From the NCBI GenBank assembly GCA_030613055.1, contig JAUWMR010000029.1:1-50825 (forward strand): a stretch of DNA of 50,825 nucleotides, in the 5' to 3' direction. The notes below the pieces were generated by a model that made no database searches, was not told the origin of the DNA, and was given only the letters and a program-made list of their open reading frames with translations. Source of the stretch: Desulfobacteraceae bacterium (GTDB lineage: Bacteria; Desulfobacterota; DSM-4660; Desulfatiglandales; Desulfatiglandaceae). A program made the translations under genes and the position numbers. Numbering within the stretch: position 1 is the stretch's first letter; each line of letters starts with the position of its first letter. Shown piece by piece: positions 4,576-28,098 of this stretch.

Positions 4576-5718
4576 ATGGAAGTTGCAAATCCGCTCAGTG
4601 AAGTATCTGAGGCGATAATCGAAGCCGGTGGGGAAGCTCTCAAGTCTTGCTACCAGTGTGGGCTCTGTACGGCTTCTTGCCCCTGGAATCTGGTCCGCAG
4701 TTTCCTCACCCGAAGGCTTATTCATGAGTCACAGATTGGCCTGTTGGACCTTGGGAGTGAAGAAGTCTGGCTTTGTGCCACCTGTGGCGCTTGCGTGGAA
4801 AGATGTCCCCGCGGGGTGGAGATCATAGATATCTTTAAGGCATTACGGGGGATCGGGACCCAGTGGGGAGTAACTCCCAAGACCGTTAAAATTGCAATGG
4901 GTGGCATCTTGACTTCGGGGAACCCGTGGCAGGAAGAACGGGAAAAGAGAGCAGATTGGGCCAAGGATCTCGACATAAAGGCCTTCACACAGGGAACTGA
5001 ACTCCTTTATTACCCTTGCTGTACCCCTGCATATGACAGGCGGGCTCGAAGAATAGCCTTAGCCACGGTGGATATCCTGAAAAAGGCCGGTGTTGATTTC
5101 GGGATTTTGGGGCCTGAGGAAAATTGCTGTGGTGAGAGCGCGCGTAAGTTAGGGGAGGAGGATATTTTTCAAAGCCTGGCCAAGGGTAATATTGATGCTT
5201 TCAAACGCCATGAAGTGAAAAGGGTTTTGGTCTCCTCACCTCACTGCTATCATACCTTTAAAAACGAATACCCCGATCTTGGTGGGGATTTCGAAGTTGT
5301 TCACATCACTCAATTCCTAATGGAATTGATTGAGGATGGGAGGATAAAGCCCGAGAAGCCTTTTCCAAAGAAGGTCACCTATCATGACCCCTGTTACCTG
5401 GGGCGTCATAATAAGGTATACGAGGAGCCAAGAAAGGTGTTGGAAAGCATTCCGGAACTTGAACTCATTGAGCTTCCAGATTCCCGGGAGGAAGCCGTCT
5501 GCTGCGGTGGCGGCGGGGGAAGAATATGGATGGAGACCAAGAAGGAAGAGAGGTTCTCCGACCTACGGATAGAACAGGCCCTGGAGGTAGGCGCAGAAGT
5601 TCTGGCTATTTGTTGTCCCTATTGTATGCTCAATTTCGATGACAGCCTCCTTAATATGGGCAAAGAGGATGTGCTTGAGATTAAGGATATCTCAGAGCTG
5701 GTCAATGAAGTGATTTAG
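4576..5718 (+). CDS. HdrBC/HdrD-like iron-sulfur protein with two CCG domains
   Basis: A 380-residue cytoplasmic protein that combines the roles of heterodisulfide reductase subunits C and B. Seen in order: two N-terminal [4Fe-4S] motifs, CYQCGLCTASCP and CATCGACVERCP, then two cysteine-rich CCG domains, the first with CCTPAYD and ENCCGESARK plus a following SSPHCYH, the second with YHDPCYLGRHN, AVCCGGGGGR and ICCPYC. CCG domains hold the unusual [4Fe-4S] clusters that reduce disulfides in methanogen Hdr. The substrate here is unknown. It ends 10 bases before the HdrA-like gene, so the two probably form one complex. The FAD-oxidoreductase remnant lies directly upstream. Confidence 0.9.
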   Translation: MEVANPLSEVSEAIIEAGGEALKSCYQCGLCTASCPWNLVRSFLTRRLIHESQIGLLDLGSEEVWLCATCGACVERCPRGVEIIDIFKALRGIGTQWGVTPKTVKIAMGGILTSGNPWQEEREKRADWAKDLDIKAFTQGTELLYYPCCTPAYDRRARRIALATVDILKKAGVDFGILGPEENCCGESARKLGEEDIFQSLAKGNIDAFKRHEVKRVLVSSPHCYHTFKNEYPDLGGDFEVVHITQFLMELIEDGRIKPEKPFPKKVTYHDPCYLGRHNKVYEEPRKVLESIPELELIELPDSREEAVCCGGGGGRIWMETKKEERFSDLRIEQALEVGAEVLAICCPYCMLNFDDSLLNMGKEDVLEIKDISELVNEVI

Positions 5719-5728
5719 TGGGGTCAAT

Positions 5729-7705
5729 ATGGAGAGAAGAATAGGAGTTTACGTTTGCCACTGCGGGCTAAATATTGCTGCCACGGTTGACCCGAAGGAA
5801 GTAGCGGAATCCGCTGCATCCCTTAATGGAGTGGTGTTAGCCCGGGACTATATGTTCATGTGTTCCGATCCAGGTCAGGAGCTAATCCTTAAAGATATCA
5901 AGGAGCACAAACTTGACAGGGTGGTAGTGGCTGCTTGCTCTCCTTTAATGCACGAACATACTTTTCGCCGTGTTTGCCGTGAGGCCGGAATAAACCCCTA
6001 TTTTTTGGAAATCGCCAACATCCGGGAGCATTGTAGCTGGGTTCACGATGATGGGGCTACTGAGAAGGCCAAAGAGCTTGTTAGGGCAGCGGTGATGAAG
6101 GCTTACTATGACGAGCCCCTGGAGACAAGCGAAGTCGCAATCAATCCGAACACCCTTGTTGTAGGCGGCGGGATTGCCGGAATTCAGGCAGCCCTGGATA
6201 TAGCCGACGCCGGCTACAAAGTTTATTTAGTTGAGCGTGAACCCTCCATTGGTGGGCACATGATTCAGCTTGATAAGACATTCCCTACGCTTGACTGCTC
6301 TGCCTGCATTTTGACACCGAAAATGAGCGATGTCGGGTCCCATCCTAATATTGACCTTCTATCCTATAGCGAGGTTGAGGAAGTCTCAGGAAGTATAGGT
6401 GAATTCAGGGTCAAGGTCAGGAGGAAGGCCCGCTATGTGGACGAGAATAAGTGTACGGGATGTGGCCTTTGTATGGACGAGTGCCGTTTGAAGGGCCGTA
6501 TAACCAGTGAATTTGATCTGGGTCTGGGGATGAGAAGCGCTATCTACACCCCTTTTGCCCAGGCCGTGCCCAATAAACCTGTGATTGATCCTGAGCACTG
6601 CCTCATGCTGAAAACAGGTAAGTGCGGCAAGGAGGGCCCGAAGTGCGTTGAGGTGTGCGGGCCAGAGGCCATCGACTTCGAGCAGAAAGATACGTATCTG
6701 GAACTTGATGTGGGGAGCATTATCCTGGCAACCGGCTATGACCAGCAGGATCCGTCGGCTGTGCCCCAGTACGGATATGGCAAGTTCGACAATGTCATCA
6801 GCGGGTTGGAATTTGAACGACTTTCCAATGCCGCAGGCCCAACCGAAGGGCAGATCATGCTCAAGAACGGCCAGACACCCGAGAGTGTTGCCATTATTCA
6901 TTGTGTGGGCAGCCGGGATAAGAATTTTCACGAATATTGCTCCAGGGTCTGCTGCATGTATGCCCTCAAGTTCGCCCACCTGATAAGAGAGAAGACTAAC
7001 GCCGAAGTGTACCAGATGTACATTGACATGCGATGCTTTGGAGAAGGGTATGAGGAGTTCTATGAGCGGCTTAGCACCGAGGATGGGATAATGTTTATCC
7101 GGGGTAAGGCTTCCCAGGTTACCGACCGGGCCCAGACCGAGGAGGAAAAAGGGAAGCTGACCGTATGTGTAGAGGATACACTATTAGGGAAATTTATCCG
7201 GGTGCCGGTGGACATGGTGATCCTCTGTGACGCACTTGAGCCGAGGGCAGACACCGAGGAGATGGCAAAGGTCTTTTCCATTGGCCGGAGGGCGGATGGC
7301 TTTTTCATGGAGAGGCACGTAAAGCTTGACCCCATAAGTACATTGAACGATGGAATATTTATTGCCGGATGTTGTGAGGGGCCTAAAGACATACCCGACA
7401 CGGTAGCCCAGGCCAAGGCGGCCGCCTCTGAAGTGCTGAGTCTGTTGGCCCGGGGTTCAGTGGAAATTGAGCCAATCGTTGCCTCCGTGGACGAGGAAGT
7501 ATGCATCGGTTGCGGCCTATGCGAGAAGATGTGTGTCTATGGGGCGCTTTCCCTTGCCGAGCCTGAAGGAGTAATGACCGTAAATGAAGCGTTATGTAAA
7601 GGGTGCGGGGCCTGTTCCGGTATTTGTCCTTCAGGGGCGATGTCGCTGAGTCATTTTACATATCGACAGATTTTGGGCCAGGTGGAAGCCTTTAGCTCTT
7701 ACTAA
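5729..7705 (+). CDS. HdrA-like FAD iron-sulfur protein
   Basis: A 658-residue relative of heterodisulfide reductase subunit A, the flavoprotein where electron bifurcation or confurcation takes place. Seen: a short N-terminal domain with CHC (10-12); an FAD-binding Rossmann motif VVGGGIAGIQAALDIADAG near residue 147; the HdrA signature FPTLDCSACILTPKM; a CTGCGLCMDECR ferredoxin motif inserted after it; an FAD/NAD segment IIHCVGSRDKN; and a C-terminal pair of clusters, CIGCGLCEKMC and CKGCGACSGICP. It follows the HdrBC-like gene closely. With the NADH-binding pair near base 1 it suggests an NADH/ferredoxin/thiol electron-transfer system, as in Flx-Hdr complexes, though no FlxABCD set is visible. 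Confidence 0.93.
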   Translation: MERRIGVYVCHCGLNIAATVDPKEVAESAASLNGVVLARDYMFMCSDPGQELILKDIKEHKLDRVVVAACSPLMHEHTFRRVCREAGINPYFLEIANIREHCSWVHDDGATEKAKELVRAAVMKAYYDEPLETSEVAINPNTLVVGGGIAGIQAALDIADAGYKVYLVEREPSIGGHMIQLDKTFPTLDCSACILTPKMSDVGSHPNIDLLSYSEVEEVSGSIGEFRVKVRRKARYVDENKCTGCGLCMDECRLKGRITSEFDLGLGMRSAIYTPFAQAVPNKPVIDPEHCLMLKTGKCGKEGPKCVEVCGPEAIDFEQKDTYLELDVGSIILATGYDQQDPSAVPQYGYGKFDNVISGLEFERLSNAAGPTEGQIMLKNGQTPESVAIIHCVGSRDKNFHEYCSRVCCMYALKFAHLIREKTNAEVYQMYIDMRCFGEGYEEFYERLSTEDGIMFIRGKASQVTDRAQTEEEKGKLTVCVEDTLLGKFIRVPVDMVILCDALEPRADTEEMAKVFSIGRRADGFFMERHVKLDPISTLNDGIFIAGCCEGPKDIPDTVAQAKAAASEVLSLLARGSVEIEPIVASVDEEVCIGCGLCEKMCVYGALSLAEPEGVMTVNEALCKGCGACSGICPSGAMSLSHFTYRQILGQVEAFSSY

Positions 7706-9508: not shown

Positions 9509-9841
9509 ATGAAATTGGCTTTGACAGTCTGTGAAAATCGAATTTCTCCGCTCTTTGATTGTGCACGCATGTTGCTTATCGTGGATATTGTTGACCGCAC
9601 GTCAACCGGCAGGCATTTTGAGGTTTTGCATTATGAGTCGCCTTTTTCCCGGGCCGCAAAACTGTCTGATCTGGGTGTAAAGGTTTTGATTTGCGGCGCT
9701 GTCTCAGATCAATTTGCAAACATAATCGAGACATACGGTATCACGATTATCCCCTTTATCGCAGGCGCGGTTGACGAGGTGCTTGATGCCTATTTAACTG
9801 TCGGACTTTCCGATTCAAAGTTCCGAATGCCTGGATGCTGA
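9509..9841 (+). CDS. NifX/NifB-type iron-molybdenum cofactor-binding domain protein
   Basis: A 110-residue single-domain member of the dinitrogenase iron-molybdenum cofactor family (NifX, NafY, C-terminal NifB). Family members carry metal-sulfur cluster precursors. Seen: the opening LALTVCENRISPLFDCARML, the strand KVLICGAVSDQF and the end GAVDEVLDAYL; a C-terminal cysteine ends the protein. No nitrogenase genes are present, so the cargo is unlikely to be FeMo-co itself. It is the first gene after the sigma-54 promoter. Confidence 0.88.
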   Translation: MKLALTVCENRISPLFDCARMLLIVDIVDRTSTGRHFEVLHYESPFSRAAKLSDLGVKVLICGAVSDQFANIIETYGITIIPFIAGAVDEVLDAYLTVGLSDSKFRMPGC

Positions 9842-9880
9842 ACCGGGCGCGACAGTGGCTGTTGAGAGGAAAACTGATCG

Positions 9881-10819
9881 ATGGGAGATTATAGGTATTT
9901 GTTTGGCCCGGTGCCGTCCCGCCGGTTTGGGCGGTCTCTGGGTGTTGATTTGAACCCTTACAAGACATGCAGTCTGGATTGTGTTTTCTGCCAATTGGGA
10001 CGAACCTCGAAAAAGACAGTTACCAGGCAGGAATATGTCCCGACAGACATGGTATTATCTGAACTGGAAGATTGGGTAAAGAGAGGTGGCAAGGCAGACT
10101 ACATCACACTTTCCGGCTCCGGCGAGCCAACTCTTCATTTGCGTTTCGGGGAAGTGCTTGAGTTCATTCGCTCAAAAACCGCAATTTCTGCCGTGCTCCT
10201 GACGAACGCTACGATGCTTTATCTTCCGGAAGTGCGTGATGCTGCTGCCAGTGCCAACGTGGTAAAGGTTTCACTGAGCGCCTGGGATCAGTCATCCTAC
10301 AGGTGGGTGAACCGCCCACATACGCAACTGAGGTTTGATCAGCTTGTGGAAGGACAAAAGGCATTTAGGGCACAATTTAAGGGCAAGCTATGGATGGAGG
10401 TCTTTCTGGTGGGAGGAATGAATTCAACTCTGGATGATGTCCGTAAGATTGCTACCCTTGCAAAACAAATCAATCCGGACCGCATCCAGCTCAATACGGC
10501 TGTCCGTCCACCCGCGGAGGATTTTGTCGCGGCCCTGTCTAAGGAACATATAGAGTCTCTGACCCATCTGTTTCAACCGACAGCGGAAGTTATCGCGGAG
10601 TTCAGTGCAAACCATGCAGAACATATGCAGGCGAACCAGGAAACGATTTTTTCAATGTTGCAGCGACGACCGTGTACAGCGGATCAAATTGCAGATGTAT
10701 TCGATATGCATCTCAATGAGGTGTCGAAATATCTCGGGATTTTGATACGACGCGATCAGATCCATGTGGAACGTAAAAACTCCATGGTGTACTACGCAGT
10801 CAAAAAACAAAAAGAATAA
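9881..10819 (+). CDS. Radical SAM protein with C-terminal winged-helix domain
   Basis: A 312-residue radical SAM enzyme. The cluster motif CSLDCVFC (C30, C34, C37) binds the [4Fe-4S] centre that cleaves S-adenosylmethionine; GSGEPTLH and LTNATML match later strands of the barrel. The opening LFGPVPSRRFGRSLGVD is typical of an uncharacterised group often filed near wyosine-type enzymes. The last 70 residues look like a winged helix (DQIADVFDMHLNEVSKYLGIL). A GAGAGGAAAA sequence lies before the ATG. It probably shares the sigma-54 transcript with the NifX-like gene 39 bases upstream. The substrate is unknown. Confidence 0.88.
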   Translation: MGDYRYLFGPVPSRRFGRSLGVDLNPYKTCSLDCVFCQLGRTSKKTVTRQEYVPTDMVLSELEDWVKRGGKADYITLSGSGEPTLHLRFGEVLEFIRSKTAISAVLLTNATMLYLPEVRDAAASANVVKVSLSAWDQSSYRWVNRPHTQLRFDQLVEGQKAFRAQFKGKLWMEVFLVGGMNSTLDDVRKIATLAKQINPDRIQLNTAVRPPAEDFVAALSKEHIESLTHLFQPTAEVIAEFSANHAEHMQANQETIFSMLQRRPCTADQIADVFDMHLNEVSKYLGILIRRDQIHVERKNSMVYYAVKKQKE

Positions 10820-10949
10820 AGACTATGTGCAAGCATGAATATGAGTGCAAAATTTAATTACCTGAATAATTACAAAAGATGATTATTATTGTAACACCGG
10901 ATTTATATAAGAATGTATAGGACATAAAAATCTTGTTTATCTATGTCTG

Positions 10950-10979
10950 CCCCGCGGAACGCGGGGTAATCCTGTCTAA
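10950..10979 (+). repeat. Partial copy of GC-rich palindromic repeat R4
   Basis: ccccgcggaacgcgggg forms a hairpin, and the right side continues taatcctgtctaaa. The same core and right arm occur in the much longer palindrome at 16690-16740, so this is a degraded copy missing most of the left arm. Confidence 0.7.
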
Positions 10980-11035
10980 AGGTCTTTTAACAATGTGAAC
11001 TATTACGAAAAATTTAAACTTAGGAGGAGATGGAT

Positions 11036-11635
11036 ATGAAAATTGCTGTAAGCAGTAGTGGAAAGGATTTAGATTCCCAGGTGGATCCGCGCTTTGGCCG
11101 GTGTGCCTGTTTTATCATTGTAGAGACAGATGACATGAGCTTTGAGGCCTTTGATAACGGGAGTATCGCCCTGGGTGGAGGGGCCGGCATTCAAGCGGGC
11201 CAGTTTGTGGCCTCCAAAGGGGCTAAGGCTATTATAACCGGAAATGTCGGCCCAAATGCGGTGCAAACCCTTTCCGCTGCAGGGGTCGAGGTTTTTGTAG
11301 GGCAGTCCGGGACAGTCAGAGAGGTTATAGAAAATTACACGAGGGGTAAAATTAATTCGACAAGGACGCCCAATGTGGCCGATCACTACGGTATGGGATC
11401 CGGCGCAGGTATGGGCAGAGGCATGGGTATGGGCGGAGGCAGAGGTATGGGAATGGGCGGAGGCAGAGGTATGGGACGCGGAATGAGCGGCACAGCATTG
11501 GGTGGTTCAAGCCAGCCCAAATCCGTCCCATTATCAAAGGATGAAGATTTGAAGAGACTTAAAGATCAGGCAAATGAATTACACAAGCAGATTGAAGCCA
11601 TTGAAACAAGCATGAATGCCTTAGAAAAAAAATAG
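11036..11635 (+). CDS. NifX-like domain with Gly/Met/Arg-rich linker and coiled-coil tail
   Basis: A 199-residue protein. Residues 1-110 form a NifX-type fold, with AVSSSGKDLDSQVDPRFGRC at the start and AIITGNVGPNAVQTLSAAG later. A stretch of about 45 residues is then made of repeated GMGRG/GMGGGRG units, followed by a charged coiled coil (LKRLKDQANELHKQIEAIE). I chose ATG 11036 over 11030, because AGGAGG at 11023-11028 is 7 bases from the former. The linker and coiled coil resemble the DUF5320 proteins farther on. It precedes the Mrp/NifX fusion by 77 bases. Confidence 0.85.
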   Translation: MKIAVSSSGKDLDSQVDPRFGRCACFIIVETDDMSFEAFDNGSIALGGGAGIQAGQFVASKGAKAIITGNVGPNAVQTLSAAGVEVFVGQSGTVREVIENYTRGKINSTRTPNVADHYGMGSGAGMGRGMGMGGGRGMGMGGGRGMGRGMSGTALGGSSQPKSVPLSKDEDLKRLKDQANELHKQIEAIETSMNALEKK

Positions 11636-11712
11636 GAGCCGTTTTTTCAAAAGAAAAAACAGAAAGATGTTCGTAAAAATATTTTGGAGCAAAAACTGGA
11701 GGTTAACGATTT

Positions 11713-12945
11713 ATGGCAAATGAAAATAAGAGCCGGCAGGATAAGCATAAACAGCAGGATGTAGAGATAAAGGAAACATTAGGCCAAATAAAGAACAAGA
11801 TCCTGGTCATGAGCGGCAAAGGGGGCGTTGGCAAAAGCAGCATAGCAGCTTATCTCTCGGTAGCCTTAGCGAAGAGAGGTTACAGGGTAGGGCTCATGGA
11901 TGTGGATCTGCATGGTCCAAGTATACCTCGGATGCTTGGTCTGGAAGGAAGCCTTGGACCAGGTTCCGGGGAGGGAAAGCCCCGCCCTATCAGGTACATT
12001 CCAAATATGGAAGTGATTTCCATTGAACCCCTCATGGGAGAAAATAAGGATGCAGCGACGATATGGAGAGGACCGCTTAAGATCGGTGTTATCAGACAGT
12101 TCATTGCGGATATCGAATGGATGGATCTCGATTATATGATTATCGATTCACCTCCCGGCACGGGCGATGAGCCCCTGACCATTGCACAGACCATACCCGA
12201 TGCAAAGGCCTTGATTGTTACCACACCCCAAGAGATTTCATTAGCTGATGTCAGAAAATCCATAAATTTTTGCCGTCAGGTCAATATGGTGATCTTAGGC
12301 ATTGTTGAGAATATGAGCGGCCTCAAATGTCCTCATTGCGGAGAAATGATTGATATATTCAAGACCCGTGGCGGCATGCTCACTGCAAAAAAAGAGGGCC
12401 TGAGACTTTTGGGAACTCTGCCCTTTGAACCAGATGTGGTATCTAAGGGTGATACTGGGAGTATGAGTCTCTTGGACGACAATAAGCTCTTGCTCACCAA
12501 GGAATTCAACAAAATAGTGGATGAAATTGTGAAATTAACAGGGACCGGGGCAGAGCCTGTCCCTGAGCCAAAAAAGAAATCTCCGGGCAGAAAAAAGCGC
12601 TCAGCAGATATAAAAGTGCTTGTGGTTCCTGTGTCCGGGGGAAAGCTTTCAGCTCATTTTGGCCACTGTGAACAATTCGCATTTATCGAGACTCAAAACG
12701 GAAAGATAACGGAGACGGAAATGCTCAATCCACCAGCACATGAGCCTGGAGCGCTGCCCCAGTGGCTTTATGAGCAAGGTGCTGATGTAGCCATCGTGGG
12801 TGGAATGGGAGAAAGCGCACAGCAACTCCTGAGGGAAAAGGGGATTGAAGTAATCATCGGCGCTCCCATGGATTCCCCGGAGTCCCTGGCAAACCAGTAC
12901 CTTTCTGATACTTTGGTAGCGGGTGCTAACGTCTGTGACCATTAA
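11713..12945 (+). CDS. Mrp/NBP35-type ATPase fused to a NifX domain
   Basis: A 410-residue iron-sulfur cluster carrier ATPase. Known for the family: Mrp/NBP35 dimers bind a [4Fe-4S] cluster and hand it to apo-proteins. Seen: the deviant Walker A GKGGVGKS (35-42), the switch region DSPPGTGDE, and the CxxC pair C206/C209 that bridges the cluster. A Pro/Lys-rich linker leads to a C-terminal NifX-type domain (about 297-410) with GKLSAHFGHCEQF and GGMGESAQQLL. The fusion ties cluster delivery to metal-cofactor binding in one chain. GGAGG lies 10 bases before the ATG. Confidence 0.9.
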   Translation: MANENKSRQDKHKQQDVEIKETLGQIKNKILVMSGKGGVGKSSIAAYLSVALAKRGYRVGLMDVDLHGPSIPRMLGLEGSLGPGSGEGKPRPIRYIPNMEVISIEPLMGENKDAATIWRGPLKIGVIRQFIADIEWMDLDYMIIDSPPGTGDEPLTIAQTIPDAKALIVTTPQEISLADVRKSINFCRQVNMVILGIVENMSGLKCPHCGEMIDIFKTRGGMLTAKKEGLRLLGTLPFEPDVVSKGDTGSMSLLDDNKLLLTKEFNKIVDEIVKLTGTGAEPVPEPKKKSPGRKKRSADIKVLVVPVSGGKLSAHFGHCEQFAFIETQNGKITETEMLNPPAHEPGALPQWLYEQGADVAIVGGMGESAQQLLREKGIEVIIGAPMDSPESLANQYLSDTLVAGANVCDH

Positions 12946-12996
12946 AAAAAAGCAAAATGTTTTCAATCTCAAAATTTATTAATTACAAGGAAGTAA

Positions 12997-13071
12997 GCGT
13001 TCGCAGGTTCAGACCCGCCCGCCGGGCGGCAGACAGGGTTCATCATCTGTGGACCCTGAACCCATGAACGG
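12997..13071 (+). repeat. Dispersed repeat R2, copy 1
   Basis: gcgttcgcaggttcag (left) and ctgaacccatgaacg (right) form imperfect inverted arms around a GC-rich centre. A related element lies at 26006-26090. Both sit just before a gene's Shine-Dalgarno sequence. Confidence 0.7.
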
Positions 13072-13089
13072 TCAAAGAAGGAGAAAGTA

Positions 13090-13926
13090 ATGATTATCAG
13101 TATAGCAAGCGGAAAAGGGGGTACAGGAAAAACAACTGTGGCCACTAATCTGGCCATTTCTCTTGAATGCGATGTCCAGATTCTTGACTGTGATGTTGAA
13201 GAACCTAACGCTCACCTCTTTATCCGACCCACCATTGAAGAGGTTAAGACGATCACCACCCCTGTTCCCGAGGTGGATATGGACAAATGCACCCTTTGCG
13301 GGAAATGTGCGGAAATATGCCAGTTCAAGGCCATAATTGTCATCGGTGAGACGGTGCTGCCGTTCCATGAACTGTGTCACAGTTGTGGTGGGTGCATGGA
13401 GGTTTGCCCTGAAAAGGCCATAACGGAAACAGGCCGGGAATTAGGCATAATCGAGAGAGGAAACAAAAACGGGCTGGAATTTGTACATGGGAAATTAAGG
13501 ATTGGTGAGGCCATGTCGCCCCCCCTGATAAAAAAAGTGCGCGAATATACCCGGCCTGGCATATTAACCATCATTGATGCCCCTCCGGGCACCTCTTGCC
13601 CTGTGATTGCTTCCATGACGGGTGCGGATTTTGTTATGTTAGTCACGGAACCTACGCCGTTCGGCCTGTATGATCTCAAGCTTGCTGTCGGGGCCGTCAA
13701 GATCTTAGGGATTCCGTGTGGGCTGGTCATCAACCGGTCAGACATGGGGGATGATCAGGTAAGGGTCTATGCCGAACAGGAGGGTATTCCTATTTTGATG
13801 GAAATCCCTTTTGACCGGCGGATTGCAGAGGCCTATTCAAGGGGAGAGATGATCGTAGAGGTGATGCCCGAATGGAAAGACAAGTTCTCAGAGTTATATC
13901 TTCGTATTGAAAAAATTGTAGAATGA
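13090..13926 (+). CDS. MinD-type ATPase with inserted 2x[4Fe-4S] ferredoxin domain (A)
   Basis: A 278-residue P-loop ATPase. Seen: the deviant Walker A SGKGGTGKTT (7-16), an inserted ferredoxin domain with C67/C70/C73/C77 and C96/C99/C102/C106, and the switch-like DAPPGTSCP. Proteins of this kind occur in pairs in anaerobes and are thought to help iron-sulfur or metal-cofactor assembly; the exact task is not established. A second copy begins 15 bases downstream. The pair follows the Mrp/NifX fusion, which supports a shared role. AAGGAG precedes the ATG. Confidence 0.9.
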   Translation: MIISIASGKGGTGKTTVATNLAISLECDVQILDCDVEEPNAHLFIRPTIEEVKTITTPVPEVDMDKCTLCGKCAEICQFKAIIVIGETVLPFHELCHSCGGCMEVCPEKAITETGRELGIIERGNKNGLEFVHGKLRIGEAMSPPLIKKVREYTRPGILTIIDAPPGTSCPVIASMTGADFVMLVTEPTPFGLYDLKLAVGAVKILGIPCGLVINRSDMGDDQVRVYAEQEGIPILMEIPFDRRIAEAYSRGEMIVEVMPEWKDKFSELYLRIEKIVE

Positions 13927-13941
13927 AAAGGAGCAATATTA

Positions 13942-14808
13942 ATGAAAGAGATCGTCATCATAAGTGGCAAGGGAGGGACCGGGAAGACCAGTATTATTGC
14001 AGCATTTGCCTCATTGGCCAAAAACAAGGTCCTTTGTGATGCAGATGTGGACGCGGCCGATCTTCATTTGATTATGGACCCTGAGATCACGGAACGCCAT
14101 GATTTTGAATCCGGGCGTACGGCAATCATTAATCAGGATAAATGCACCGAGTGCGGCCTTTGCCGGGATTTGTGCAGATGGAATGCAATTAGCGAGGATT
14201 TTGTGGTGGACTCCATTGAATGTGAGGGCTGTGGTGTCTGTTGTTATTTCTGCCCTGAAGAAGCCATCGACTTTCCCCTGAATACCTGCGGCGAGTGGTA
14301 TCTTTCCGAGAGCCGTTTCGGCCCCATGGCCCATGCCCGATTAGGCATTGCGGAAGAAAATTCAGGAAAACTGGTGAGCCTTATCCGGCAGGAAGGTAAA
14401 AAGCTTGTTGAAGAAAAAAATCTGAGTTTGCTTCTTACGGATGGACCTCCAGGCATAGGTTGCCCGGTCATTGCATCCATGGGAGGGGCCACGGCAGTGC
14501 TCATCGTGACAGAACCCACGGTTTCGGGCAGGCATGATATGGAACGTGTGGCAGAGTTAGCAGCATTTTTTAAGATTCCTGCAATGATGTGTGTCAATAA
14601 GTTTGATCTCAATCCCAGTCAAGGAGAAGCCATTGAGGCCTTTGCAAGAGAAAGAAACGTAGGTGTGATAGGAAGGGTTCCTTTTGATCCTGCCTTCACT
14701 AATGCGATGGTTCAGGGCAAGACCATTGTGGAATTTGACAGCCAGTCTGAAGGTTGCGTGGCGGTCAAAACTATATGGGAAAATCTGGCACAAAGTTTTG
14801 AGATATGA
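13942..14808 (+). CDS. MinD-type ATPase with inserted 2x[4Fe-4S] ferredoxin domain (B)
   Basis: The tandem paralogue of the preceding gene, 288 residues. Seen: Walker A SGKGGTGKTS (8-17), ferredoxin cysteines C68/C71/C74/C78 and C94/C97/C100/C104 with an extra cysteine at C101, and DGPPGIGCP after the insert. The two proteins probably form a heterodimer, as the conserved side-by-side arrangement in other anaerobes suggests. An AAAGGAG lies before the start. Confidence 0.9.
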   Translation: MKEIVIISGKGGTGKTSIIAAFASLAKNKVLCDADVDAADLHLIMDPEITERHDFESGRTAIINQDKCTECGLCRDLCRWNAISEDFVVDSIECEGCGVCCYFCPEEAIDFPLNTCGEWYLSESRFGPMAHARLGIAEENSGKLVSLIRQEGKKLVEEKNLSLLLTDGPPGIGCPVIASMGGATAVLIVTEPTVSGRHDMERVAELAAFFKIPAMMCVNKFDLNPSQGEAIEAFARERNVGVIGRVPFDPAFTNAMVQGKTIVEFDSQSEGCVAVKTIWENLAQSFEI

Positions 14809-14825
14809 ATCAAAAGCTAAACAAT

Positions 14826-14993
14826 ACCTCAATTGAGGTGGTACTTGGTATCTGGTACTGGGTACTGGTTTAGAGGAATATTTTTCATTTTTTATATCTC
14901 TATCAGGGAAGTAATATAAGATAAGACGTGAAACACCTTAAAACCAATACCAGATACCCAATACCACCTAATTGAGCATCACTCAATTAGGGT
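14826..14993 (+). repeat. Repeat R1, copy 2, inside a larger inverted repeat
   Basis: The core (14875-14993) matches 7778-7903. Here it is preceded by a perfect palindrome, acctcaattgaggt (14826-14839), and a ggtatctggtactgggtactgg stretch (14840-14870) that is the imperfect reverse complement of the ccaataccagatacccaatacc part of the core. The whole could fold into one long hairpin. The terminal small hairpin is at 14967-14991. Confidence 0.75.
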
Positions 14994-15014
14994 AATAGAA
15001 AGGAGGTAAATAAA

Positions 15015-15254
15015 ATGCCGAGAGGAGATGGAACAGGACCAGGAGGCCAGGGACCTGGAACAGGTAGAGGTATGGGTAGAGGCGGCGGTGGACAAGGTCA
15101 AGGTGGTGGTCGGGGCCGGGGAGGTGGTTTTGCGGCAGGCCCTGGCGGTTATTGTGTCTGCCCTAACTGTGGTGAAAGAGCAACCCACAACTTGGGGAGC
15201 CCATGTTATGAGCAGCAATGTCCCAAGTGTGGAACGGCCATGACACGGGAATAG
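15015..15254 (+). CDS. Small Gly-rich protein with zinc-ribbon-like cysteines
   Basis: A 79-residue protein. Its first 50 residues are mostly Gly, Arg and Gln, and the opening MPRGDGTGPGGQGPGTGRGM is like that of DUF5320 and related short proteins found beside NifX and Mrp genes. Its end has four cysteines as CVCPNCGE and CPKCGT, with another cysteine (SPCYEQQ) between them, which suggests a zinc or iron site. A strong AAAGGAGGT sits 8 bases before the ATG, directly after repeat R1. The function is unknown. Confidence 0.8.
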   Translation: MPRGDGTGPGGQGPGTGRGMGRGGGGQGQGGGRGRGGGFAAGPGGYCVCPNCGERATHNLGSPCYEQQCPKCGTAMTRE

Positions 15255-26523: not shown

Positions 26524-26922
26524 TTATGATTCAGAAGATTCCGACTCGAGCTCCTCGATGCGTTTGTGCATGGCATCAAGTTCTCTTTTCATGGCATCGG
26601 CATCACCTTTGAGCATATTAACCTCGTCTTCGGGGTTCATGGCATAGGGATTCCCATAAGGGGCATTGTAGGCTGGTCCATACCATCCTCCATCAGGGGG
26701 ATAAGCTCCGCGCCAGCCGAAGCCTCTACCGTAGCCTTGACCCTGGCCGAAACCAGGGCCAAAACCACCCCTGAAACCACGTCCTCGACCAAATCCTCGG
26801 CCATACCCAAAACCCTGTCCAAATGCAGGCCTGTATCCGGCCCCCGCGGGGTTACAATATCCTCGAGCACCTCCGGTCATTGGACCGGCGCCCATGGGTC
26901 CTGATCCGTCTAATCCTGGCAT
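26524..26922 (-). CDS. DUF5320 protein (Gly/Tyr/Arg-rich with coiled coil)
   Basis: A 132-residue protein starting MPGLDGSGPMGAGPMTGGARG, the DUF5320 signature. The middle is a long Gly/Tyr/Phe/Arg low-complexity stretch, and the end is an acidic coiled coil (AMKRELDAMHKRIEELESE). The family occurs beside NifX and Mrp genes in anaerobes; the role is unknown. I chose ATG 26922 over GTG 26931, because GGAGGT lies 7 bases before it. Confidence 0.85.
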   Translation of the reverse strand: MPGLDGSGPMGAGPMTGGARGYCNPAGAGYRPAFGQGFGYGRGFGRGRGFRGGFGPGFGQGQGYGRGFGWRGAYPPDGGWYGPAYNAPYGNPYAMNPEDEVNMLKGDADAMKRELDAMHKRIEELESESSES

Positions 26923-27014: not shown

Positions 27015-27269
27015 CTACCTCCGGCCCCCTTTTCCGCGCCCTGCACCGGATCCCCGGCCGGAAAAACGCGCGCCTTGTCCGGAGAAACCTCTTCGGGAAT
27101 TTAGACCCATACCTCTGCCAGTGCCGCGACCTCGGCCAAAAGACCGGCCACCGACCATTCCCATACCACTACCAGAGCCATAAGCGGATCCAGAGGGATT
27201 ACAGAGGCCTTGACCTCTTCCAGTCATAGGTCCCATTCCTGCTGGTCCTGTTCCACTAAATCCAGGCAT
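27015..27269 (-). CDS. DUF5320-like Gly/Arg/Met-rich small protein
   Basis: An 84-residue protein starting MPGFSGTGPAGMGPMTGRGQ with one cysteine (GLCNPSG), then GRGRGTGRGMG-type repeats to the end. It lacks the coiled coil seen in its neighbour. A longer frame upstream is a shadow over the DUF134 gene. AGGAGGT precedes the ATG. It lies between DUF134 and the larger DUF5320 gene on one transcript. Confidence 0.78.
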   Translation of the reverse strand: MPGFSGTGPAGMGPMTGRGQGLCNPSGSAYGSGSGMGMVGGRSFGRGRGTGRGMGLNSRRGFSGQGARFSGRGSGAGRGKGGRR

Positions 27270-27288: not shown

Positions 27289-27627
27289 TTAAAATCTACC
27301 GCCCCAGCCCCTGCGGTGTCTTCCTCTTCCTCTGGGCGGCATATCAAAATGACCACCCTCAATTCTAAGGATCTTGCCCATAACCAGGGCATCAGCAACA
27401 ATGGCCCTCGCTTCAGCCAAGATTCTCCCAAAGGTTTGACGTGAGACATTCATCATTTGGGCTGCTGTCTCCTGATCCAACCCTTGAAAATCGTTCAGTT
27501 TGATCGCCTCAAGACCCTCTATGGGAAGGATAACCTCCTGTCTTCCCCATGGGGGCACCCTGTTGGGAAGAAAGGCGTCAACAATGGGGTGTCCCTGAAC
27601 AAATCTGAGCTTTCTCGGCCTTGGCAT
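27289..27627 (-). CDS. DUF134 DNA-binding protein
   Basis: A 112-residue protein starting MPRPRKLRFV, typical of DUF134, a family with a sigma-r4-like helix-turn-helix (GLDQETAAQMMNVSRQTFGRIL). It is likely a transcription factor. The C-terminus carries a Gly/Arg tail (PPRGRGRHRRGWGGRF). I chose ATG 27627 over GTG 27633 because AGGAGG overlaps the GTG. It is the first gene of the minus-strand trio and its promoter carries palindromic operators. Confidence 0.85.
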   Translation of the reverse strand: MPRPRKLRFVQGHPIVDAFLPNRVPPWGRQEVILPIEGLEAIKLNDFQGLDQETAAQMMNVSRQTFGRILAEARAIVADALVMGKILRIEGGHFDMPPRGRGRHRRGWGGRF

Positions 27628-27639
27628 TTCCACCTCCTG

Positions 27640-27711
27640 TTATGAGCTTATGCTCATAATATAAATATTCACATATAATAGTCAAGCAATTATTTTGGGC
27701 ATATGCTCATT
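27640..27711 (-). promoter_or_regulatory. Promoter and operator-like palindromes of the DUF134 operon
   Basis: On the minus strand TTGACT (27685-27680) and TATATT (27663-27658) have a 16-base spacer. A perfect palindrome, ttatgagc-ttat-gctcataa (27640-27659), overlaps the -10 box and the start site. A half-match, gcatatgctcat (27699-27710), lies upstream of the -35. Such a layout fits autoregulation by the DUF134 protein. Confidence 0.6.
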
Positions 27712-28098
27712 TACTGGTTTCGCCCCGAAACAAAACAATACTTCAGCTGGCCAAATAAGAAGTAACATAATAGCTCAATAATTCAGGGTAACAAGTCATT
27801 GATTCTCATTTACCCGACCACAATGTGCCCCTTAGGGGCTTCGCCCCAGTTGGAATAATGGAATCCCGCCAGGGCGGGAGAATAATGGAATATTGGGTTG
27901 AAAATATGATAGAGGCTGAAGGCAAAATCTTTTAGCCTTAAGCGAAGCGAGCCTCCAACCTAAAGCGAAGCGCTTCTAAAACAAAAATTATTCCCTGCCT
28001 GCGGCAGGTAGGCATGTAGGCAAAAGCATCAAGCCACAATAAACACCTTTGATTTAAATAAGTTGTATAACTTCCGAGACGTTACGAATGGACTTTGC

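Follow-up and report, generated by a model that had tools for sequence, protein, structure and literature searches.

Operator conservation and recognition-helix covariation point to DUF134 proteins as small autorepressors

The DUF134 protein encoded in the window (the whole 50,825-nucleotide stretch analysed, from a Desulfobacteraceae bacterium) is very probably, at about 85% by our own estimate, a small dimeric autorepressor that would bind a palindrome on its own core promoter, serve a tiny regulon of its own operon and DUF5320 or NifX-like genes, and have its operator bases set by its recognition helix. The patterns that carry this proposal were read directly in the sequences, namely the conservation of the operator, its position at the promoter, its covariation with the protein and its recurrence in trans. 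The first-pass annotation had suggested a DUF134 binding motif, an interpretation to which conserved operators and helix covariation now lend support; candidate features beyond it are a full second operator at a fixed 52–53 bp, trans sites at DUF5320 genes and a specificity that appears readable from the helix.

The DUF134 gene lies on the minus strand (27289–27627) and encodes 112 residues counted from the ATG at 27627, the numbering used here. This ATG is the likely start because of the ribosome-binding site AGGAGG read from the sequence at 27633–27638 (minus strand), and an upstream GTG at 27633 was set aside in its favour. The product, which lacks cysteine, matches PF02001 (DUF134) over residues 4–97 (79.1 bits, cut-off 27). 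Two genes follow in the same direction (27015–27269 and 26524–26922, minus strand), both matching DUF5320 (PF17253; 34.1 and 76.9 bits, cut-off 27). The promoter of the DUF134 gene shows a -35 box TTGACT (27685–27680) and a -10 box read as TATATT or TATTAT (27663–27656), spaced by 16 or 18 bp on the minus strand.

The proximal operator (O2; 27640–27659, TTATGAGCATAAGCTCATAA in minus-strand reading) has perfect 8-bp arms, TTATGAGC-TTAT-GCTCATAA, and is conserved in the window's order. As the annotation had stated, it covers the -10 box; from the placement of TTGACT and TATATT/TATTAT it probably overlaps the presumed start site too. The distal operator (O1; 27693–27712, AAATGAGCATATGCCCAAAA in minus-strand reading) is placed just upstream of the -35 box, 53 bp from O2. 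It had been described as a related half-site, but it is a full 20-mer that matches 12 of the 16 consensus positions. When sites across the window were ranked, the O2 palindrome came out best and O1 second (12), with the next ones at 11. The window has four exact 8-4-8 inverted repeats, where resampled sequence has 1.1 on average; a lone repeat of this kind is not rare, and the statistical case therefore depends on relatives.

A protein-profile scan of GTDB genomes provided the best 80 of 568 confirmed loci, from many phyla; most of these loci carry a single palindrome immediately ahead of the gene, with TTATGRGCATATGCYYATAA as a frequent form. Added searches centred on Omnitrophota, Spirochaetota and the window (positive genomes: 85 of 145, 48 of 198 and 87 of 247, respectively), together with 60 regions fetched for additional Omnitrophota matches, gave a pooled set of 279 distinct DUF134 genes, 276 of them with enough upstream sequence. 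A blind site finder, which scores TTAT, ATAT, ATAA and palindromy and ignores the identity of bases 5–8, reached at least 12 in 222 of the 276 loci versus 4.7% of shuffles, and at least 14 in 160 versus 0.05%; no site of at least 12 was found by it in 54. The motif search before relatives' DUF134 genes that the annotation had called for thus returned conserved operators in many phyla, co-varying with the recognition helix. Proteins of the helix class SRPTVTRM (e.g. L002) had recognisable operators in none of nine cases and may have a different target. The distance from TTGAC to the start of the site is 26–27 bp in 31 of the 38 paired loci of the window's order described below, mostly 24–31 bp in Omnitrophota (46/79) and 6–10 bp in 65 of the 99 others, whereas a reversed control motif was found in 5 of 216. 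Judged by this spacing, the site lies mostly on the core promoter.

Among 99 relatives of the window genome, PF02001 was present in 53, and 51 DUF134 loci were read. The 45 testable loci exclude the divergent L002, L005 and L045 (outside the order), L007 (protein and site of another type), and L006 and L011 (less than 120 bp upstream). Two operators flank the -35 box and promoter in 38 of these 45, with start-to-start distances of 53 bp (23 loci), 52 bp (12), 54 bp (2) and 49 bp (1); a 52–53 bp pair, equivalent to five helical turns, is therefore present in 35 of the 38. Three of the remaining seven loci have a single site and four have none. None of 1920 shuffles of the upstream regions gave a best site of at least 14/16, and none a second-best site of at least 12. 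The distal 53-bp copy is not general outside the window's order. The regular spacing of the two sites hints at proteins in cooperative contact along a single face of the DNA.

A correspondence was found between the operator bases and the N-terminal end of the recognition helix (Ser62-Arg63-Gln64-Thr65-Phe66-Gly67-Arg68; codons at 27444–27424, minus strand), and in the predicted structure (model numbering +2) the co-varying residues fall at the start of this helix. The SRQTFGR helix goes with C8 in 143 of 144 half-sites, SRPTFSR with A7 in 43/44 and C8 in 44/44, and SRQTFGN with T5 in 50/50; Asn68 pairs with T5 in 54/54 half-sites. SQQTFSR is accompanied by T8 in 38/38, as is SQPTFHR, from another phylum, in 6/6, so that Gln63 is found in two phyla with differing helix backgrounds. 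In two-by-two tables over 216 loci, from which rows with mixed halves were dropped, Gln63 and T/T at base 8 agreed in 32 and 181 loci with no exceptions (n = 213), Asn68 and T at base 5 in 27 and 179 with three (n = 209), and Ser, Thr or His67 with non-Gln64 and A7 in 34 and 166 with seven (n = 207). Weighted mutual information, scored over all alignment columns (55.8 effective sequences), placed Arg68 on top for base 5, Gln64 for base 6, Gln64 and then Gly67 for base 7, and Arg63 for base 8; base 6 is weakly explained by the helix columns, and the rules for bases 5 and 8 are broken in at least one half-site at 12 of 216 loci. Contact of arginine with the G in a C:G pair, or of glutamine with the A in a T:A pair, is ordinary major-groove chemistry. 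Residues 63, 64, 67 and 68 would set half-site bases 8, 7 and 5.

Shared ancestry is what chiefly limits this covariation. On a tree from which the helix columns were omitted, the two main switches change state six and five times; independent pairs on well-supported branches amount to two per switch and agree nearly always, a number with which a sign test cannot reach 0.05, and allowing unsupported branches raises them to six and five. Prediction from the helix with one group left out, which excluded 50 loci with helices unseen elsewhere, was right for base 5 in 282 of 332 half-sites (majority guess 230) and for base 7 in 307 (263), with no gain at base 8 (326 versus 326) or base 6 (249 versus 245), because the Gln63 helices are not common to the groups. 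In 16 Omnitrophota genomes with two or three site-bearing DUF134 paralogs the helices differ and each paralog has its own operator type, with three types within one genome in G180, G223 and G248. A test set fetched later comprised 16 named plasmid loci of 189 records, some of them near-duplicates; bases 5 and 8 were as expected in 16/16, the base-5 rule being fixed beforehand for 11 of the 16 and that for residues 68 other than Arg or Asn (5/16) being phrased after viewing, and 13 of the 16 sites scored at least 12. A stronger claim, which we hold to be somewhat better than even, is that DUF134 proteins are one-operon repressors with a near one-to-one code of four residues, and that the helix switches insulate paralogs from each other, so that the operator could be predicted from the protein sequence. 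The code proposed within this claim, Arg63–C8, Gln63–T8, Arg68–G5 and Asn68–T5, would be almost one-to-one.

The regulon appears to be small. In the whole genome TTATGAGCNNNNGCTCATAA occurs without mismatch at the window site only, and no other site lies under two mismatches; at up to three mismatches there were 19 matches versus 13 for the reversed control. Matches with two or three mismatches being near the control level, a regulon beyond DUF134 and DUF5320 in this genome was set aside. In 32 named genomes (chosen from the 80 loci) the palindrome was found 36 times in the forward count and the reversed pattern four times; as a rule a genome has one palindrome, and three genomes have none. 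Five of seven extra sites precede second DUF134 genes (one of them with its frame broken after 66 residues), the sixth precedes a short open reading frame starting like DUF134 (L177), and the seventh is at G113:C552. Of 84 relatives, 48 have DUF134 over the cut-off, and 32 of these contain sites with at most one mismatch, as against none of the 36 without it; with at most two mismatches the counts were 46/48 and 6/36. Four genomes of the order whose DUF134 gene lacks its own operator (G005, G026, G047 and G052) all have a site ahead of a DUF5320 gene that lies far off. Two of the four show the 52-bp pair there, and such a pair precedes a remote DUF5320 gene also in G014 and G032.

In the relatives set the first gene downstream of DUF134 is DUF5320 at 34 of 44 loci. 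In other lineages it is Nitro_FeMo-Co (PF02579) at 64 of 102, a count made with a simple gene caller and short calls dropped. The closest known gene clusters are in this respect the NifX/NifB-like (PF02579) and DUF5320 ones; in the window DUF134 is partnered by two DUF5320 genes, and the nine PF02579 matches of the genome lie elsewhere. A second cluster in the window (9533–15176) contains three Nitro_FeMo-Co and two DUF5320 matches without a DUF134-type operator. DUF134 is present in 189 plasmid records, and the phage records gave no DUF134 match. On Enterobacterales and Aeromonas plasmids (L372, L375, L376, L379–L381) DUF134 adjoins a NifB/NifX-family gene, often with genes for a SLAC1-family channel and a PaaI thioesterase. 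At L127 (Omnitrophota; 5330–5929) the DUF134 belongs to the SRQTFGN class, and the gene after it is, as we take it by eye, similar to an ACR3-type arsenite permease.

Other sites were seen away from these contexts. L338 looks like a further copy of a DUF134 promoter, and operator-like sites were observed near L346, L349, L350 and L351; about 200 bp from the site at L346 (G007:C269) lies a stand-alone zinc-ribbon protein that resembles the DUF134 C-terminus and is perhaps a broken DUF134. A dispersed repeat at L339–L345, L347 and L348 carries TTATGRGCATATGCTCATAA or a near form and is also found in two genomes lacking DUF134; the operator-like palindromes of this repeat at contig ends (G020, G038, G012 and G019) were set aside, as they are not gene promoters.

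The predicted structure of DUF134 (mean pLDDT 85.8) contains a helix-turn-helix. Its residues 16–88 align with chains of sigma-70 region 4 (VIA Z as high as 7.0, with region 4 in many rows), and no Foldseek match was obtained at E ≤ 0.001, so that a predicted fold similar to sigma region 4 is suggestive only. The helix-turn-helix also gave a weak match to the C-terminal one of ECF sigma factors (TIGR02999; 20.7 bits against a cut-off of 126.15, profile positions 141–182 only), and membership in that family was rejected. Unlike sigma factors, DUF134 has no region 2 match, is a short stand-alone protein, and has a putative palindromic target rather than a -35 box. A sequence search found no convincing solved relative of DUF134. 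Since the window protein has no cysteine, a cysteine-ligated metal or Fe-S sensor was dropped for this lineage; 46 of 47 loci of the order lack both an N-terminal Cys and a C-terminal zinc ribbon, and an N-terminal Cys is found in 80 of 85 genes from the group of named loci. In this lineage the signal may therefore be carried by a partner, for instance DUF5320 or a NifX-like protein, which is speculation.

In the mechanism that we propose, DUF134 would be a small repressor with a helix-turn-helix resembling sigma region 4, and its dimer, suggested by the palindromic operator, would bind the 20-bp palindrome (TTATGAGCnnnnGCTCATAA in the window lineage) on its own core promoter, thereby blocking RNA polymerase. 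As the site is mostly on the core promoter, repression by occlusion is the form that may be argued, and repression rather than activation would follow from site position alone. In the window's order the second operator, five helical turns upstream and just above the -35 box, brackets the promoter, an arrangement that points to cooperative binding or a small loop. The tiny regulon would comprise the own operon and DUF5320, in cis or in trans, and in other lineages also NifX-like genes of metal-cofactor proteins, and the inducing signal would be tied to metal or Fe-S state. Direct binding, dimerisation, repression and looping by DUF134 are what we infer from comparative data. LacI, GalR and lambda CI are autoregulated repressors with paired operators around the promoter. 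DUF134 shares with them core-promoter operators and a second copy at whole helical turns; it differs in belonging to another protein family and in that its looping is only presumed.

The position of the distal operator leaves room for DUF134 activating its own promoter through that site, with the proximal one secondary, since class II activators bind just upstream of -35 and DUF134 resembles sigma region 4. We regard activation as unlikely, because the site conserved across phyla is the core-promoter one (26–27 or 6–10 bp from TTGAC), the distal 53-bp copy is not a general feature beyond the window's order, and the TTGAC boxes, being near consensus, would need little help. Much less probable still is that the palindrome belongs to another, unlinked regulator with DUF134 merely a member of its regulon: the gene neighbourhood alone is compatible with it and nothing specific speaks for it, but the half-site bases track DUF134's own recognition helix, even among paralogs of the same genome, and genomes without DUF134 lack sites with at most one mismatch. 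Least credible of all is an RNA hairpin, an attenuator or leader element in place of a DNA operator. The palindrome does lie between promoter and start codon; it overlaps the -10 box, so that the presumed transcript would start inside it and lack one arm, and against a hairpin there are also the second copy upstream of -35 and the palindromes placed within the -35/-10 spacer in other phyla. For autorepression, what was found is a conserved palindrome on DUF134's own core promoter and a specificity that follows the recognition helix, with limited tree-corrected support for the latter.

The window protein is a member of PF02001 (DUF134), a family annotated as of unknown function, which we take to be the same as UPF0251 and COG1342. 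The literature covered, mostly outside subscription journals, gave no operator, target, structure or regulator role for DUF134, UPF0251 or COG1342, and searches on the operator strings, DUF5320 and combined terms likewise gave no regulator role for DUF134. One paper names DUF134 and DUF5320 as without known function (PMC7565180); a mutation table in another (PMC5886521) and a passage on DUF1345 in a third (PMC8346489) give no regulator role for DUF134 either.

With the autorepressor reading, sequence alone provides a domain of unknown function, present in many sampled phyla, with a target, a regulon and a code that predicts its specificity, and DUF5320 and NifX-like proteins, themselves poorly understood, are tied to a regulator of their own. 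As the operator is short and a member of the family occurs on an E. coli plasmid, the proposal is testable in laboratory E. coli. The paralog sets constitute a natural record of how repressor specificity changes without cross-talk and, if the reading is true, the DUF134 family could be used to find the metal-cofactor regulon and to make orthogonal repressors.
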